64,000 nt of DNA from Acidobacteriota bacterium (lineage in GTDB: Bacteria; Acidobacteriota; Vicinamibacteria; Vicinamibacterales; UBA2999). The stretch covers positions 124,001-188,000 of the forward strand of contig VFZN01000005.1 in assembly GCA_016871195.1 (NCBI GenBank), given 5' to 3'. The notes beneath the pieces were generated by a model, which did not search any database, had not been told where the DNA came from, and saw only the letters and a list, made by a program, of their open reading frames with translations. The position numbers were made by a program, and so were the translations under genes. Below are positions 16,441 through 24,075 of this stretch, piece after piece (position 1 is the first letter of the stretch; the number at the start of each line of letters is the position of its first letter).

Positions 16441-17421
16441 ATGGAACGCCACGGGGAAATTGTTCGGCAATGGCGCTTGATCCTGGCGCTCGAGACCAGT
16501 CGGCACGGCCTGACCCTCTCCGACCTGCGGAGGCAGGCGGATGCCGGTGTCTCGGAACGCACCATCCGGCGCGACCTTGATGCGCTCGGGCAGGCGGGGT
16601 TTGCGCTCGACCACGAACGCCGCGAGGGCCGCACCGTTTATCGTCTGAACCAGGACGTGTTCCGTGGCCTAGCACAGACAGGCCTGTCGCTGTCAGAGTT
16701 GTGCGCCCTGCACCTGAGCCGCAGCCTGCTCGATGCCCTCGCAGGCGGGCCATTCCAGGACCATCTGCGGTCGGCCTTCGACAAGCTGACCGATGCCCTG
16801 CCCCAGCCCCTCTGGGCCTTTGTCGACCGGCTGCCCACGGCGCTGGTAGCCACGGGCCCCGAACTGCGCACCGCCACCGGGGCACACCGACATGTCGATG
16901 ATCTGCTGCGGGCCGTGCTGTCGCACCAGCGGGTGCGCATGCGCTATCACTCGTTCTCGAGCGGGCAGACCCGCGACTATACCCTCGAGCCCTACCGGGT
17001 CGCCTACGCACAGGGCGCCCTTTACCTCTTTGCCTTCGTGCCCGACTACGGCGAGATGCGGACGTTCGCCCTGCAGCGGGTCGAAAGCGTTGCCCTCCTC
17101 GAAGAGCACTTCACACCCGAACACGCCGGCGACGCCATGCCGCGTCATTCGCTATCGGTGTTTTCAGGGGCACCGACGGCCGTGGCCGTCTGGTTTACCC
17201 CGACCGAGGCGCGGTATGTGCGCGAACGGGTCTGGCACCCGAGCCAGCGGCTCGATGACCACGCCGACGGCAGCCTGACGGCGCATCTCGATGTCGTCGC
17301 CGACTGGGGGCTCGAGGCCTGGATTCTCGGCTTTGGTCCCGGGGCGCGCGTCGTCGCCCCCGCATGGCTGGCTCAGCGGCTCGCCGAGCGGCTCAGCGCG
17401 GCCCGCAGGCACTACGACTGA
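16441..17421 (+). CDS. WYL-domain transcriptional regulator
   Basis: About 326 residues. An N-terminal winged helix of the HTH_11 type (ERTIRRDLDALGQAGFALDH) is followed by a WYL domain (RMRYHSFSSGQTRDYTLEPY, GALYLFAFVPDYGEMRTFAL) and a WCX-like C-terminus. WYL proteins bind nucleic acid or nucleotide ligands and often control stress, DNA-damage or defence genes. ATG 16441 is preferred because GAGG stands 5 nt before it; GTG 16423 is the alternative. Its target is unknown. The gene overlaps terC tail to tail by 10 nt. Confidence 0.85.
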   Translation: MERHGEIVRQWRLILALETSRHGLTLSDLRRQADAGVSERTIRRDLDALGQAGFALDHERREGRTVYRLNQDVFRGLAQTGLSLSELCALHLSRSLLDALAGGPFQDHLRSAFDKLTDALPQPLWAFVDRLPTALVATGPELRTATGAHRHVDDLLRAVLSHQRVRMRYHSFSSGQTRDYTLEPYRVAYAQGALYLFAFVPDYGEMRTFALQRVESVALLEEHFTPEHAGDAMPRHSLSVFSGAPTAVAVWFTPTEARYVRERVWHPSQRLDDHADGSLTAHLDVVADWGLEAWILGFGPGARVVAPAWLAQRLAERLSAARRHYD

Positions 17422-18155
17422 GGGCCACCCGACGCCCCGGCCTCTGCCGCGTCCTCGTCAAACGCGACCGGGCCCTTCTTCCGCGCATAGAAATACGAGG
17501 CGCCGAAGATGACCACAATCAGGCCGAGCGAAATCGGTTTGGGAATTTCGAGGTGAATCCACCCGAGGCCGTGGAAATACTCGACCAGCAGCTTGATGCC
17601 GACCCAGGCAATGATGACGAAGGCCCCGTCCACCAGCGGCGGATACCGCCGCACGAGGGTCAGCAGCTGCCCAATCACCAGCCGCATGGCGACGATGCCC
17701 AGCAGGCCGCCCGTGATGATGACCCACAGCTTGTTCGACATGGCCACGGCCACGAGAATCGAATCAATCGCAAACACGATGTCGGTCAGCTCGACCCTGA
17801 CCACCGTCGCCCAGAACGCCGACAGCCCCAGCATGGCCTGCGCCGGTTTGGCCACCTGGCCCGACTCGCCCGCTTCTCCGCCACCCCGGAAGTGCTGATA
17901 GGGCAGATAGAGCAGGTAGAGCCCGCCCAGCAGCCGCACCCACAGCAGGTTGATCATGTAGGCCGCCCCGGCCGTGGCCGCCGTGCGGAAGGCAAACGCC
18001 CCGAGAATGCCATAGCGCAGCGCCTTCTGCTGCTCGGCACGCGGCAGGCCCAGCACCAGAATGGCCAGCACCATCGCGTTGTCGGCGCTGAGCAGCCCTT
18101 CGAGGGCCACGAGCAGCGCAATGGTCACAAAGTCGGAGACGTGCACGTCGAACAC
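17412..18155 (-). CDS. TerC family membrane protein
   Basis: 247 residues with about seven helices. The two family-defining acidic motifs are present: LLSADNAMVLAILVLGLP and FAIDSILVAVAMS. TerC/Alx proteins are implicated in metal (notably Mn2+) export and in supporting metallation of exported proteins. No yybP-ykoY riboswitch is visible upstream; only 73 nt separate it from hspR. TATACT on the minus strand (18170-18165) lies 9 nt before GTG 18155. The shared upstream region contains TTGA half-sites, so HspR might act on terC too. Confidence 0.88.
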   Translation of the reverse strand: MFDVHVSDFVTIALLVALEGLLSADNAMVLAILVLGLPRAEQQKALRYGILGAFAFRTAATAGAAYMINLLWVRLLGGLYLLYLPYQHFRGGGEAGESGQVAKPAQAMLGLSAFWATVVRVELTDIVFAIDSILVAVAMSNKLWVIITGGLLGIVAMRLVIGQLLTLVRRYPPLVDGAFVIIAWVGIKLLVEYFHGLGWIHLEIPKPISLGLIVVIFGASYFYARKKGPVAFDEDAAEAGASGGPQS

Positions 18156-18161
18156 GATGCG

Positions 18162-18235
18162 TCAAGTATAGCTGCCCCAGGGGCCCTCCATACTTGACAC
18201 GATTCGTATCAATGCCTAGACTCGAATTGTGTCAA
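18162..18235. promoter_or_regulatory. Nested palindromes between terC and hspR (putative HspR operator)
   Basis: Two inverted repeats share a central TTGA. TCAAGTAT (18162-18169) pairs with ATACTTGA (18190-18197). TTGACACGATTCG (18194-18206) pairs with CGAATTGTGTCAA (18223-18235) at 12 of 13 positions. In addition CTTGACA-N7-TATCAAT (18193-18213) has the geometry of the HspR site known as HAIR (CTTGAGT-N7-ACTCAAG). The repeats bracket the hspR promoter and reach its start codon, as expected for autorepression. Confidence 0.65.
18194..18222 (+). promoter_or_regulatory. hspR promoter, -35 and -10
   Basis: TTGACA (18194-18199), 17 nt, TAGACT (18217-18222), then 6 nt to GTG 18229. This is the best sigma-70 promoter in the window. 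Its -35 lies in the left arm of the 13-nt inverted repeat, so a bound repressor would block RNA polymerase. The transcript should be leaderless. Confidence 0.75.
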
Positions 18236-18582
18236 TACCAGAGCTCATCTTCATCTCGATGGCCGCGCGCCTGCTCGACATGCATCCGCAGACGCTGCGG
18301 AAGTACGAGCGGCTCGGACTGGTGCGGCCCGCCCGCACCATCGGCAGCATGCGGCTCTACTCGGCCGAGGAAATCGAGCGCCTGCGGTTCATCAAGCGCC
18401 TCGTCGAAGACGAGGGCGTGAACCTCGCCGGGGTGCAGCGCCTGCTGTCGGTGGCCGAGGTGATGCAGCGCATCCGCCCCCTGCTCGACGAGCGGCTCGT
18501 GGTCAGCGATGCCCCGCGCCGGCGTCGCCTGCTGCGCGCGCTGCTGCAACTGCACGACGGCCTCGGCCTGGACGGACGGTAG
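18229..18582 (+). CDS. hspR: HspR-type MerR heat-shock repressor
   Basis: 117 residues. The MerR winged helix carries the HspR hallmark [17 protein letters not shown], then [17 protein letters not shown] and [13 protein letters not shown]. HspR represses chaperone operons and is released on heat shock, using DnaK as co-repressor in Streptomyces. GTG 18229 is preferred because the -10 hexamer ends 6 nt before it. The next gene starts 2 nt after its stop. First gene of the hspR-cbpA-clpB-ftsH run; the nested palindromes at the promoter fit autoregulation. Confidence 0.92.
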
Positions 18583-18584
18583 CC

Positions 18585-19559
18585 ATGGATTTCAAGGACT
18601 ACTACGCCACGCTCGGCGTGCCGCGCACCGCCAGCGACAAGGACATCAAGCAGGCCTTCCGCAAGCTGGCCCGGCAGTTTCACCCCGACGTCAATTCCGG
18701 GGATGCGAAGGCCGAGGCCCGCTTCAAGGAGGTGAACGAGGCGCACGAGGTGCTGAGCGACCCGGACAAGCGCCGCACCTACGACGAGGCCGGCAGCCAG
18801 TGGCGCGAGTATGCCCAGGCCCGTGAGGCACGTGCCGGCAGGCCCGGTAGCGCCGCCGGCGGGCGGACGACCTCACGCAGCATGACGCCCGAGGAGGTCG
18901 CCGAGATGTTCGGCGGGGCCGCCGAGGGCACCGGCGATTTCTCGGATTTCTTTGAAACCCTCTTCGGCGGCAACACCCGGTCGCGCAGCCGGCGCACCCG
19001 CCGCCCGGGGCCGCCCCCGACCAGGCGCGGCGACGATGTCGAGCACGAGTACGAGCTCGATGTCGAGTCGGCCGCCCGCGGCAGCGTGCACAAGCTCGTC
19101 ATGCGGCAGGGCGACGCCGAACCGCGCACGATCGATGTGCGCATTCCCCCGGGCGTCACAGACGGCTCGCGGGTCCGGGTGGCCGGCGAAGGGTCGCCCG
19201 GCACCGGAGGCGGATCACGCGGTGATTTGTTCCTGCGCATCCGTCTCAAGCCGCACCCGACGTTCACCGTGTCTGGGCGTGATGTCACCCGTCACGTGTC
19301 GGTGCCGGTGTCGCAGGCCGTGCTCGGCGGCGAACTGACGGTCGCCTCGCCCGACGGGCGGTCCATCACCGTGAGGGTGCCGGAAACCAGTCAGCCCGGC
19401 ACGCGGCTCCGTGTGCGCGGCTATGGCCTGCCGGCCCTCGGGGCGTCAGGCACACCGGGCGATCTCTATGTGGTGCTCGATGTGGCCCTGCCCCGCGAAC
19501 TGTCAGGCGCGGCCCGCAAGGCCTATGAACAGCTGGCCCGCATCGAGCGGGATGAGTAA
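18585..19559 (+). CDS. cbpA: DnaJ-family co-chaperone, CbpA type
   Basis: 324 residues. The N-terminal J domain (DYYATLGVPRTASDKDIKQA, HPD in RQFHPDVN) stimulates DnaK ATPase. A Gly/Ser/Arg-rich linker follows (about 75-150), then the two beta-sandwich substrate domains (IPPGVTDGSRVRVAGEG; AVLGGELTV). There is no CxxCxGxG zinc finger, which places it with CbpA and not DnaJ. It starts 2 nt after hspR. HspR-CbpA pairing is known from Helicobacter and Campylobacter. No dnaK or grpE is present in the window. Confidence 0.92.
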   Translation: MDFKDYYATLGVPRTASDKDIKQAFRKLARQFHPDVNSGDAKAEARFKEVNEAHEVLSDPDKRRTYDEAGSQWREYAQAREARAGRPGSAAGGRTTSRSMTPEEVAEMFGGAAEGTGDFSDFFETLFGGNTRSRSRRTRRPGPPPTRRGDDVEHEYELDVESAARGSVHKLVMRQGDAEPRTIDVRIPPGVTDGSRVRVAGEGSPGTGGGSRGDLFLRIRLKPHPTFTVSGRDVTRHVSVPVSQAVLGGELTVASPDGRSITVRVPETSQPGTRLRVRGYGLPALGASGTPGDLYVVLDVALPRELSGAARKAYEQLARIERDE

Positions 19560-19577: not shown

Positions 19578-22130
19578 ATGAATCTGCAGAAGTTCACCGA
19601 GAAGGCCCAGCAGGCCATCCTGGCCACCCCGGAGCTCGCGCGCGAGTACGGCCACGCCAGCGTCGAGCCCGAGCACCTGCTGGTGACGCTCTGCGAGCAG
19701 CCCGACGGCGTCGTGCCCTCGGTGCTGCGGGCCCTGTCGATTGATACCGACGGTCTGGCACGCGAAGCCCGCACCGGGCTCGAGCGCCTGCCGCGCGTCA
19801 GCGGCGGCAGCGAGCCGGGTCTGTCGCCCCGCCTCCGCACCGTGGTCGACACCGCCACCGCCGAGGCCCGCACGATGCAGGACGACTATGTGTCGACCGA
19901 GCACCTGCTGCTGGGCCTCGTCAAGGATACGGGACGCAGTGCCGCCGCGTCGCTGTTGAAGGGCAAGGGCATCACCCCCGAGCGCGTGCTCGAGGCCCTG
20001 ACCCGTGTGCGCGGCAGCCAGCGCGTCACTGATCCGACACCCGAGAACAAGTATCAGGCCCTCGAGAAATACGGGCGCGACCTCACCGATCTCGCTCGTC
20101 GCGGCAAGCTCGATCCCGTGATCGGCCGCGATGAAGAAGTGCGGCGCGTGATTCAGGTGCTGTCGCGGCGCACCAAGAACAACCCCGTGCTCATCGGCGA
20201 ACCTGGCGTCGGCAAAACCGCCATTGTCGAAGGCCTCGCGCAGCGCATCGTCCGCGGCGATGTCCCCGAGGGACTGAAGGACAAGCGGATCATGGCGCTC
20301 GACATGGGCGCGCTCGTGGCCGGAGCCAAATATCGCGGCGAGTTCGAGGAACGCCTGAAGGCGGTGTTGAGGGAAATCGTCGATGCCGGCGGGAAGTTTG
20401 TGCTGTTCATCGACGAGCTGCATACGGTGGTCGGCGCTGGCGCGGCCGAAGGCTCGCTCGATGCCTCGAATATGCTCAAGCCCATGCTGGCGCGCGGCGA
20501 ACTCCACACCATCGGCGCCACAACGCTCGACGAATATCGCAAGCACATCGAGAAGGACGCTGCCCTCGAGCGCCGCTTCCAGCCAGTGCTGGTCGGTGAG
20601 CCCAGTGTGGAAGACACCATCTCGATTCTGCGCGGCCTCCGCGAGCGTTACGAGATTCACCACGGCGTGCGCCTCAAGGACGGTGCGCTGGTGGCCGCAG
20701 CCGTCCTGTCGAACCGCTATATCGCGGACCGATTCCTGCCGGACAAGGCCATCGACCTGGTCGACGAAGCCGCCTCGCGGCTGCGCATGGAGATTGATTC
20801 CATGCCCGCCGAGCTCGACGAAGTCCGGCGCCGCGTGATGCAGCTGGAAATTGAGCGCGAAGCCCTGCGAAAGGAAACCGACAAGGCGTCGATCGAACGC
20901 TTGAGCCGGCTCGAGCGCGAATTGTCAGAGCTGAAGGCGGAGGACGAACGGCTACGCCAGCAGTGGGAGCGCGAGAAGAGCGCCATCCAGAAGACTCGCA
21001 GCCTCAAGGAGGAGCTCGAGCAGGTCAGGCTTGAGGCCGACCAGGCCCAGCGACGCGGCGACTATGGCCGCGCCTCCGAACTGCAGTACGGCCGCGTGCC
21101 CGAGCTCGAGCGGCAGATCGCGGCCGAGGCGGGGCTGCTGGCTGCTGACAGTCAGGCCCCCCGCATGCTCAAGGAGGAAGTAGACGAGGAAGACATCGCC
21201 GAAGTCGTGGGGCGCTGGACCGGCATTCCGGTGAGTCGGCTGATGGAAGGTGAAGTCCAGAAGCTCATGCAGATGGAAGAACGCCTGCATCGCCGCGTGG
21301 TGGGTCAGCACGATGCGGTCGTGGGCGTGTCGAACGCTATCCGCCGGGCCCGTGCAGGCCTGCAGGACCCCAGCCGTCCGCTCGGCAGCTTCATCTTCTT
21401 GGGCCCGACGGGTGTCGGGAAGACCGAACTGGCCCGGGCGCTCGCCGAGTTCCTCTTCGACGATGAGCAGGCCATGGTCCGTCTCGACATGTCCGAGTAC
21501 CAGGAGAAGCACACGGTGTCGCGCCTCATCGGTGCCCCGCCAGGATACGTGGGGTATGACGAGGCCGGGCAGTTGACCGAGGCGGTGCGACGCCGGCCCT
21601 ACGCAGTGGTGCTGTTCGATGAGGTCGAGAAGGCCCACCCCGACGTGCTGAACGTGTTGCTGCAGCTGCTCGATGATGGGCACCTGACCGACAGCAAGGG
21701 ACGGCGGGCCGACTTCAAGAACGTCGTGGTCATCATGACCTCGAACCTGCCGTCGCTCGATGCGCTTCGGGGACACTTCCGTCCTGAGTTCATCAACCGA
21801 ATCGACGAGATCGTGTTCTTCCACCCGCTGTCCGAGGTGCACACGGCCGCGATCATCGACATCCAGCTGCAGGGCCTGCTGCGGCGGCTGGCCGACCGCA
21901 AGATCACCGTCGAGCTCACGCCGGCGGCCAAGGCCCTGCTGGCGACAGAGGGGTATGATCCGGTCTATGGTGCGCGTCCGCTGAAGCGAGCAATTCAGCG
22001 ACTCGTGCTCGACCCGCTGGCCCTCCGCGTGCTGGCCGGTGACTTCGGCGAGGGCGATTCGGTCCTCGCCGATGAAGCGGACGACCGACTGGTCTTTTCC
22101 GCGCGTCATATGGAACAGGCGGGCCGGTAG
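19578..22130 (+). CDS. clpB: ClpB disaggregase
   Basis: 850-residue AAA+ disaggregase that works with DnaK to reactivate aggregates. It has two N-terminal Clp repeats, NBD1 Walker A GEPGVGKT (207-214) and Walker [10 protein letters not shown]. The coiled-coil M domain spans about 400-520, NBD2 Walker A is GPTGVGKT (609-616) and Walker B is [13 protein letters not shown]. The C-terminal ending [16 protein letters not shown] is typical. After TSNL only nine residues precede [11 protein letters not shown], against about 28 in E. coli, so a surface segment of NBD2 is missing. A Shine-Dalgarno (CAGGAGGACG) precedes ATG. Confidence 0.95.
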
Positions 22131-22152: not shown

Positions 22153-24075
22153 TTGCCCCCGAGCCCGAAAACATCTGGTCCGATGAACCCGAAGCGGCCG
22201 GCTGCGCCAAAGCCCACGTTCCTGTGGTGGACACTCGGGCTGCTGCTGGTCATGGCCATCGCTCAGGCCTGGTTCATGCAGCCAGCCGGTCCCCCGCTGC
22301 CCTACAGCGAGTTCAAGGCCCTGGTTCGCAATGGCCAGATTGCCGAGCTGTCGATTGGCGACACCGACCTCCGGGGGACCCTGAAAAGTCCCGATGCGTC
22401 GGGACAGACGGCGTTTTCAACCGTGCGCATCGACGACCCGAAACTCGTTGAGGAGCTCGATGCCCGCGGCGTGAAATACACAGGTGAAGTAGTCAACCGC
22501 TGGCTGCCCGAGCTGCTGGGCTGGGTACTGCCGGTGCTGCTGCTGGTGGGCTTCTGGGCGTTCATGCTGCGTCGCATGGGCGGTGCCGAGGGCGGGGTAA
22601 TGTCGTTTGCGCGCAGCAAAGCCAAGATCTTCGCGGAAGACGACGTCAAGGTCAGCTTCCAGGATGTGGCCGGCGTGGACGAGGCGGCGCAGGAGCTGCG
22701 GGAAATCGTCGAGTTCCTCAAGACGCCCAAGAAGTATACGAACCTCGGCGGGAAGATTCCCAAAGGCGTCATGCTGGTGGGACCGCCGGGAACCGGAAAG
22801 ACACTCCTTGCGCGTGCCGTGGCCGGCGAGGCCAAGGTGCCCTTCTTCAGCCTGTCCGGGTCGGAATTTGTCGAGATGTTCGTCGGCGTCGGCGCGGCGC
22901 GCGTGCGCGACCTGTTCGCGCAGGCCGAAGCCAAGGCGCCGTGCATCGTATTCATCGATGAGCTGGATGCCCTCGGGAAGGCCCGCGTGCAGAGCCCTAT
23001 GGGTAGCCACGAGGAGCGCGAGCAGACGCTCAACCAGCTGCTCGCCGAGATGGACGGGTTCGATCCGCGGAAGGCCATTATCATCATGGCGGCGACTAAC
23101 CGGCCCGAGGTGCTCGACCCTGCCCTGCTGCGCCCCGGCCGCTTCGACCGTCAGGTGCTGGTCGACAAGCCCGACATTCGCGGACGCGAGGCCGTGCTGC
23201 GCATCCACGTGCGGCAGGTCACATTGTCGCCATCGGTCGACCTCGCGAAGATTGCAGCCCGCACGCCCGGGTTTGCCGGCGCCGATCTGGCGAATCTCGT
23301 GAACGAGTCCGCCTTGCTCGCGGCACGCCGCGACAAGACATCGGTGGAAATGAGCGACTTTGACGAAGCCATCGAGCGGCTCATTGCAGGACTCGAGAAG
23401 AAACGCGTCATCAACCCGAAAGAGCGCGAGATCATTGCCTACCACGAGTCGGGCCACGCCATCGTGGCCGAGGCCCTGAGCGGCATGGACCCGGTCCACA
23501 AGATCTCGATTGTGGCTCGTGGCTTCGGCGCCCTCGGGTACACAATGCAGCTGCCCGTGGAAGACCGCTATCTGATGCAGAAGCAGGACCTGCTCAACCA
23601 AATCACGGTGCTGCTGGGGGGGCGGTCGGCAGAAGAAGTGGCGCTCGGGGCCATTTCCACAGGCGCGCAGAATGATTTGCAGCGCGCCACCGACATGGCC
23701 AGGTCGATGGTGACTGAGTGGGGGATGAGCGAGAGCGTGGGGCTCGTGCACTTCGACCAGGGCAAGCGAAGCCGGTTCCTCGACGTGGCGATGCCGGCCC
23801 AGCGCGGACCCTATTCAGAAGAGACTGCGCAGGCCATCGACCACGAGGTGCGGCGCATCGTCTCCGAGTCGCACGACACGGCACGTCGCCTGCTGATCGA
23901 ACACCGCGATCTGCTCGAGCAGGTCACTCAGCGCCTGCTGAAGAAGGAAGTGATGGAGGGCGAGGAGTTGCGGGCCATGATGGCCCCGGCGGCTCCCCCC
24001 GTGTTGCCGCCCGTGGGGCCTGAAGCCGAGTCGGGCCCGCAGGGCAAAGCCGACAGGACGACCGCGTCGGCCTAG
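22153..24075 (+). CDS. ftsH: ATP-dependent zinc metalloprotease FtsH
   Basis: 640-residue membrane protease for misfolded membrane proteins and regulators. Two transmembrane helices (about 23-42 and 118-137) flank a small extracytoplasmic domain. The AAA Walker A is GPPGTGKT (210-217), the SRH region is [20 protein letters not shown], and the zinc site HESGH (431-435) is intact. A Pro/Ala-rich tail ends the protein. TTG 22153 is chosen as start because AAGGAG lies 7 nt upstream; ATG 22183 is the alternative. Being last in an HspR operon makes it a likely heat-induced protease. Its stop interlocks with the CDGSH gene. Confidence 0.95.

Follow-up and report, generated by a model that had tools for sequence, protein, structure and literature searches.

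Repressors of the HspR type use DnaK as a co-repressor and are released from DNA in a heat-dependent manner. In Streptomyces, the HAIR operator places TTGA and TCAA half-sites 11 nt apart at chaperone promoters, including that of clpB, according to the available portion of PMC6102357. The same portion describes the Helicobacter pylori Pcbp operator, in which the promoter that HspR itself is expressed from, ahead of cbpA, is overlaid by a HAIR-like repeat; the central repeat is required for HspR, flanking DNA is bound cooperatively and the adjoining DNA matters. The HspR regulon of Deinococcus radiodurans includes clpB and ftsH, as described in the available part of PMC2687793, a source that also covers S. 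coelicolor and other HspR regulons. In Bacillus subtilis, a YkoY-type TerC protein and FtsH are functionally linked, meeY is controlled by a Mn riboswitch, and HspR control is not reported in the accessible part of PMC10550928. Literature searches for HspR with Acidobacteria, or for HspR with regulon, comparative genomics, HrcA or CIRCE, returned no title on an operator such as the one analysed here, and no article naming hspR and terC together was found in a search that most subscription journals lay outside.

The locus lies in a 64-kb stretch of acidobacterial DNA (hereafter the window); among named genomes, those closest to it are MAGs of Acidobacteria and Vicinamibacterales, along with a few under other labels. 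Its hspR gene (18229..18582, plus strand) encodes a 117-aa MerR-family repressor of the HspR type that clears the NCBIfam cut-off only narrowly (NF047375 HeatShock_HspR, 105.8 bits against 105). Linked chaperone genes follow on the same strand: a cbpA/dnaJ-type co-chaperone (18585..19559; Pfam DnaJ and DnaJ_C) and the clpB disaggregase (19578..22130; TIGR03346, 1316.9 bits), with the ftsH membrane protease (22153..24075; TIGR01241) closing what is probably a co-transcribed operon. The divergent neighbour is terC (17412..18155, minus strand), which encodes a YkoY-type TerC family membrane protein (TIGR03716, 215.1 bits, cut-off 138.5). Elsewhere, ftsH stands close behind clpB in 15 of 20 relatives, and none was found there in the other five (four g21 genomes and one g2). 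In the PDB, the homologues are limited to other members of the MerR family, GlnR, CarH and CadR among them, which leaves no HspR-DNA structure as a guide.

Upstream of hspR lies the dyad TTGACACG-ATT-CGTATCAA (18194..18212), a predicted HspR operator whose TTGA-N11-TCAA core occurs once in the window, at 18194. It overlaps a plus-strand promoter (18194..18222) composed of the -35 hexamer TTGACA (18194-18199), a 17-nt spacer and the -10 hexamer TAGACT (18217-18222); this sigma-70-like arrangement is the sole match of the promoter scan in 18100-18300. The transcription start predicted from the position of the -10 (+1 = 18229) coincides with the GTG codon itself, and the hspR message may therefore be leaderless in the window. 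A downstream half-site, GTGTCAA (18229..18235, plus strand), covers both the predicted start and the GTG codon. The preliminary description of this DNA had placed a probable HspR operator at the hspR promoter and pointed to its HAIR spacing, and both points are supported: the core with dyad symmetry is present at 18194-18212 and again in the consensus of 81 loci, TTGAYACG-N3-CGTATCAA, and the dyad is strongly conserved upstream of hspR. The resemblance to Streptomyces extends to the half-sites and their spacing, whereas the full consensus CTTGAGT-N7-ACTCAAG is absent: the inner GT and AC are replaced by CA and TA in the window dyad, a CG..CG pair is conserved, and the flanking bases are not (outer C in 34% and G in 44% of loci).

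Conservation was scored out of 16 in two sets. The first comprised the window and 80 relatives, with 320 nt (or all that was available) upstream of hspR. All 81 loci reach at least 12 (35 score 16, 34 score 15, seven score 14, three score 13 and two score 12), a level attained by 14 of 5000 pieces of 320 nt taken at random from these loci. As some of the relatives had supplied the consensus, the 81-locus count is in part circular. The second set consisted of the 110 genomes of the order Vicinamibacterales, among 162 searched, that carry this hspR at E ≤ 1e-26; the dyad reaches at least 12 in 110 of 110, including 29 genomes with sequences outside the first set, which also score 12 to 16. In the 81-locus alignment, TTGA and TCAA are nearly invariant and the three central bases (columns 8-10) vary freely, a pattern expected where a dimer binds. 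The right half, CGTATCAA, occupies columns 11-18, and columns 15-17 are invariant. The -10 columns read TAYACT and begin 4 nt past the dyad, the predicted start (column 35, equivalent to 18229) is G in 82% of loci, and the downstream half-site at columns 38-41 reads TCAA in 23 of the 81 and GCAA in another 29, with a CAAG-like sequence at columns 39-42. Since the dyad overlaps a near-consensus promoter, some of the conservation, that of TTGACA and TAYACT, reflects the promoter as well.

Two inverted repeats had been reported in this region, one bracketing the hspR promoter and a second sharing its TTGA with the first. Both are present exactly as placed. In the 13-nt repeat, TTGACACGATTCG (18194-18206) is complementary to CGAATTGTGTCAA (18223-18235) at 12 of 13 positions, with the -35 in the first arm and the GTG in the second; in the 8-nt repeat (18162..18197), TCAAGTAT (18162-18169) is complementary to ATACTTGA (18190-18197) at all eight. 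Dinucleotide shuffling of the 111-nt region produced a repeat of at least 12/13 with a loop of at most 40 once in 2000 trials, and 14 of 2000 pieces of that length drawn at random from the window held one, indicating that the longer repeat is unusual, whereas 8/8 repeats appeared in 87 shuffles and 217 random pieces, placing the shorter one at chance level. Across the 81 loci, the 13-nt arms of one locus pair with each other no better than with the arms of other loci. The additional inner pairing is therefore peculiar to the window genome and a few others, and a single long palindrome was rejected; the arms bring together the left half of the dyad and the downstream half-site. The 8-nt repeat depends on an ATAC preceding TTGA that is found in the window only (1/81 loci), and 2/81 have TCAAGTAT in the 120 nt upstream. 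Being at chance level and unconserved, this repeat was discarded as a terC operator. The comparison with relatives that the preliminary description had recommended thus retains the 19-bp dyad but neither repeat, and the proposed nested palindromes do not stand as one unit: the conserved parts in the 81 loci are the dyad, the -10 and the downstream half-site only.

Within the window's own genome, the dyad occurs with up to two mismatches at one place only, upstream of hspR. With a single strong site, the window HspR is likely to act chiefly on one promoter. In contrast, H. pylori HspR also acts with HrcA on groESL and hrcA-grpE-dnaK, and D. radiodurans HspR controls several genes, including dnaK and lonB. 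No CIRCE element was found in the window's genome at up to three mismatches, though HrcA is present. Among 59 relatives, 38 carry a site with at most one mismatch, all 38 at hspR, and the reversed-pattern controls were all 0; five further sites at this level occur in three genomes. In one relative, near-copies of it (ATGACACGGGKCGTATCAA) occur at three more places away from hspR (G017:C2:26965-26983, G017:C24:20543-20561 and G017:C82:5729-5747). When three mismatches are allowed in the window's genome, 14 strand-wise matches appear at 11 other places, against three in the reversed control. Long open frames enclose most of the 11, which were rejected as further targets on that ground; weak extra targets may lie among them. 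One three-mismatch site (L114 1501-1519; G000:C1:253910-253928), which is nearly palindromic and lies where a frame with the look of a CobW-type GTPase begins, possibly belongs to another regulator.

A second HspR-type gene was found in the same genome (G000:C7:155829-156095; L288 1480-1926; L309 4309-4752), directly after dnaJ and before a sigma-factor-like gene. Its product shares about 50% identity with the window HspR in the DNA-binding part. Of 149 genomes of the phylum, 124 contain matches to the HspR model at E ≤ 1e-15, with dnaJ alongside in most loci checked, and the window type was seen in these samples in the order only. Since the second gene sits in the dnaK-dnaJ operon, the window HspR has the appearance of a paralogue at the level of the order that serves one main target.

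Taken together, these sequence-based data lead us to propose, with a probability of about 85%, that an hspR-cbpA-clpB-ftsH operon has its autoregulatory operator-promoter here. In the proposed model, an HspR dimer most likely binds the dyad at 18194-18212. Bound there, it would lie over the -35 hexamer together with 13 of the 17 spacer bases and block RNA polymerase, while the conserved downstream half-site, from +1 to +7, probably stabilises binding. On heating, the accumulation of unfolded proteins would lead to release of HspR and expression of the operon, which the newly made repressor would then turn off again. Any effect on terC would be local and incidental.

Could the conserved repeats simply be the by-product of a near-consensus sigma-70 promoter that has no regulator site? 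The left half of the dyad does coincide with the -35 hexamer, but the right half lies in the spacer, where the promoter imposes no sequence need, and yet columns 15-17 are invariant in the 81 loci. Plain promoter conservation is disfavoured by this and is, in our estimate, extremely improbable. The identity of the repressor is a separate matter. The dnaK-operon paralogue scores slightly higher than the window HspR in the same scan with the HspR model (107.8 versus 105.6 bits), so that it, or both proteins, could bind the dyad; as both match the family model, the model alone cannot separate them, and it is the clpB linkage and the dyad that do. TTGA-N11-TCAA is absent from 9.5 kb around the dnaK operon of the window's genome, and a HAIR core at dnaK was accordingly rejected. 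In a sample of 197 genomes of the phylum, 19 carry a site, 13 of them in the order; although HspR-model matches are phylum-wide, the seven sites in the six genomes outside the order adjoin no relative of the window HspR (E ≤ 1e-8). Binding of the dyad by the paralogue, instead of or alongside the clpB-linked HspR, is very unlikely on this evidence.

The alternative with most in its favour is that suggested by the preliminary description, in which HspR bound to the dyad also represses terC and thereby draws it into the heat-shock response. Divergent terC lies within 350 nt of the dyad in 68 of the 110 genomes and further off in seven; one genome has a distant terC homologue on the same strand, and in the other 34 the stretch read contains no terC (four of these with less than 1 kb of flank). 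In the window, the promoter scan gives no minus-strand promoter for terC, while a -10 scan finds a probable TATACT (18165..18170, minus strand), 23 nt from the dyad and without a recognisable -35. The dyad would then span about -36 to -54 of the predicted terC start, beside the -10 and at the expected place of the -35, making local interference possible. Binding at a distance has a precedent in H. pylori, where HspR binds far upstream of two promoters under its control (PMC6102357, in part), and a functional rationale comes from B. subtilis, which depends on FtsH for life when two TerC proteins are missing (PMC10550928, in part), given that ftsH belongs to the present operon. The Mn riboswitch known from meeY was rejected for terC, as no yybP-ykoY match to Rfam was found upstream of it (17300-18700, E ≤ 1). 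Against shared control, the dyad does not travel with terC: seven of seven non-adjacent terC copies with full upstream sequence and more than 70% identity lack it, reaching only 9-10/16 over 330 nt, and a strong site is likewise absent at two terC genes with cut upstream sequence (L133, L134) and at two distant homologues (L136, L137). Conversely, terC of this type (E ≤ 1e-20) is missing in 16 of 30 genomes, picked mainly because terC was unseen beside hspR, and hspR retains its dyad there. Even in the window's own genus, terC lies about 2.6 kb from hspR in three mates, the flank of the fourth being too short to tell. One of these mates (L032 1507-3953) has an acyltransferase-like membrane protein gene, MBOAT-type by appearance, and a second gene between terC and hspR.

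The position of the terC -10 bears on the same question. A strong -10-like hexamer was found on the terC side in 56 of the 68 adjacent loci, at 0 to 220 nt from the dyad: under 10 nt in five, 10-13 nt in 13, 14-19 nt in one, 20-23 nt in 11, 24-30 nt in none, 31-40 nt in two and more than 40 nt in 24. The two short bands, at 10-13 and 20-23 nt, are one helical turn apart and hold 24 of the 56 loci, as against one in the intervals of 14-19 and 24-30 nt. This pattern was recognised post hoc, and the band loci come from few families (11 from f1, 11 from f5 and one each from f6 and f9), 19 of the 24, from f1 and f5, being expected to be related; the bands, resting mostly on two families, are suggestive. 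Helical phasing was striking in the first 49 adjacent loci; the new usable loci were too few to confirm it, and only two of 15 new loci with a strong -10 fall inside the bands. Of the proposal that one repressor governs both genes, the frequent divergent adjacency therefore stands, while the absence of the site at non-adjacent terC, its persistence where terC is lacking, the distance in the genus mates and the widely varying -10 spacing weaken the case, and we regard HspR control of terC as doubtful. A broader scheme, in which a phylum-wide HspR serves dnaK-dnaJ, an order-level HspR reads a recoded HAIR at a single main target, hspR-cbpA-clpB-ftsH, and the operator also joins terC where that gene abuts in the right helical phase, seems to us quite unlikely.

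On the autoregulatory reading, the site represents a known operator in a variant that is specific to the order and well conserved; its kind is ordinary, and its details are useful. It provides a concrete HspR operator consensus for a little-studied phylum, and the pair of HspR proteins offers a clean case for the divergence of repressor and operator following duplication. The link between heat shock and TerC, attractive yet weakly supported, is toned down. Were the scheme of two divided paralogues true, the operator would, where terC abuts it in phase, couple the metalation of exported proteins that depends on TerC to the clearing of the translocon by FtsH.
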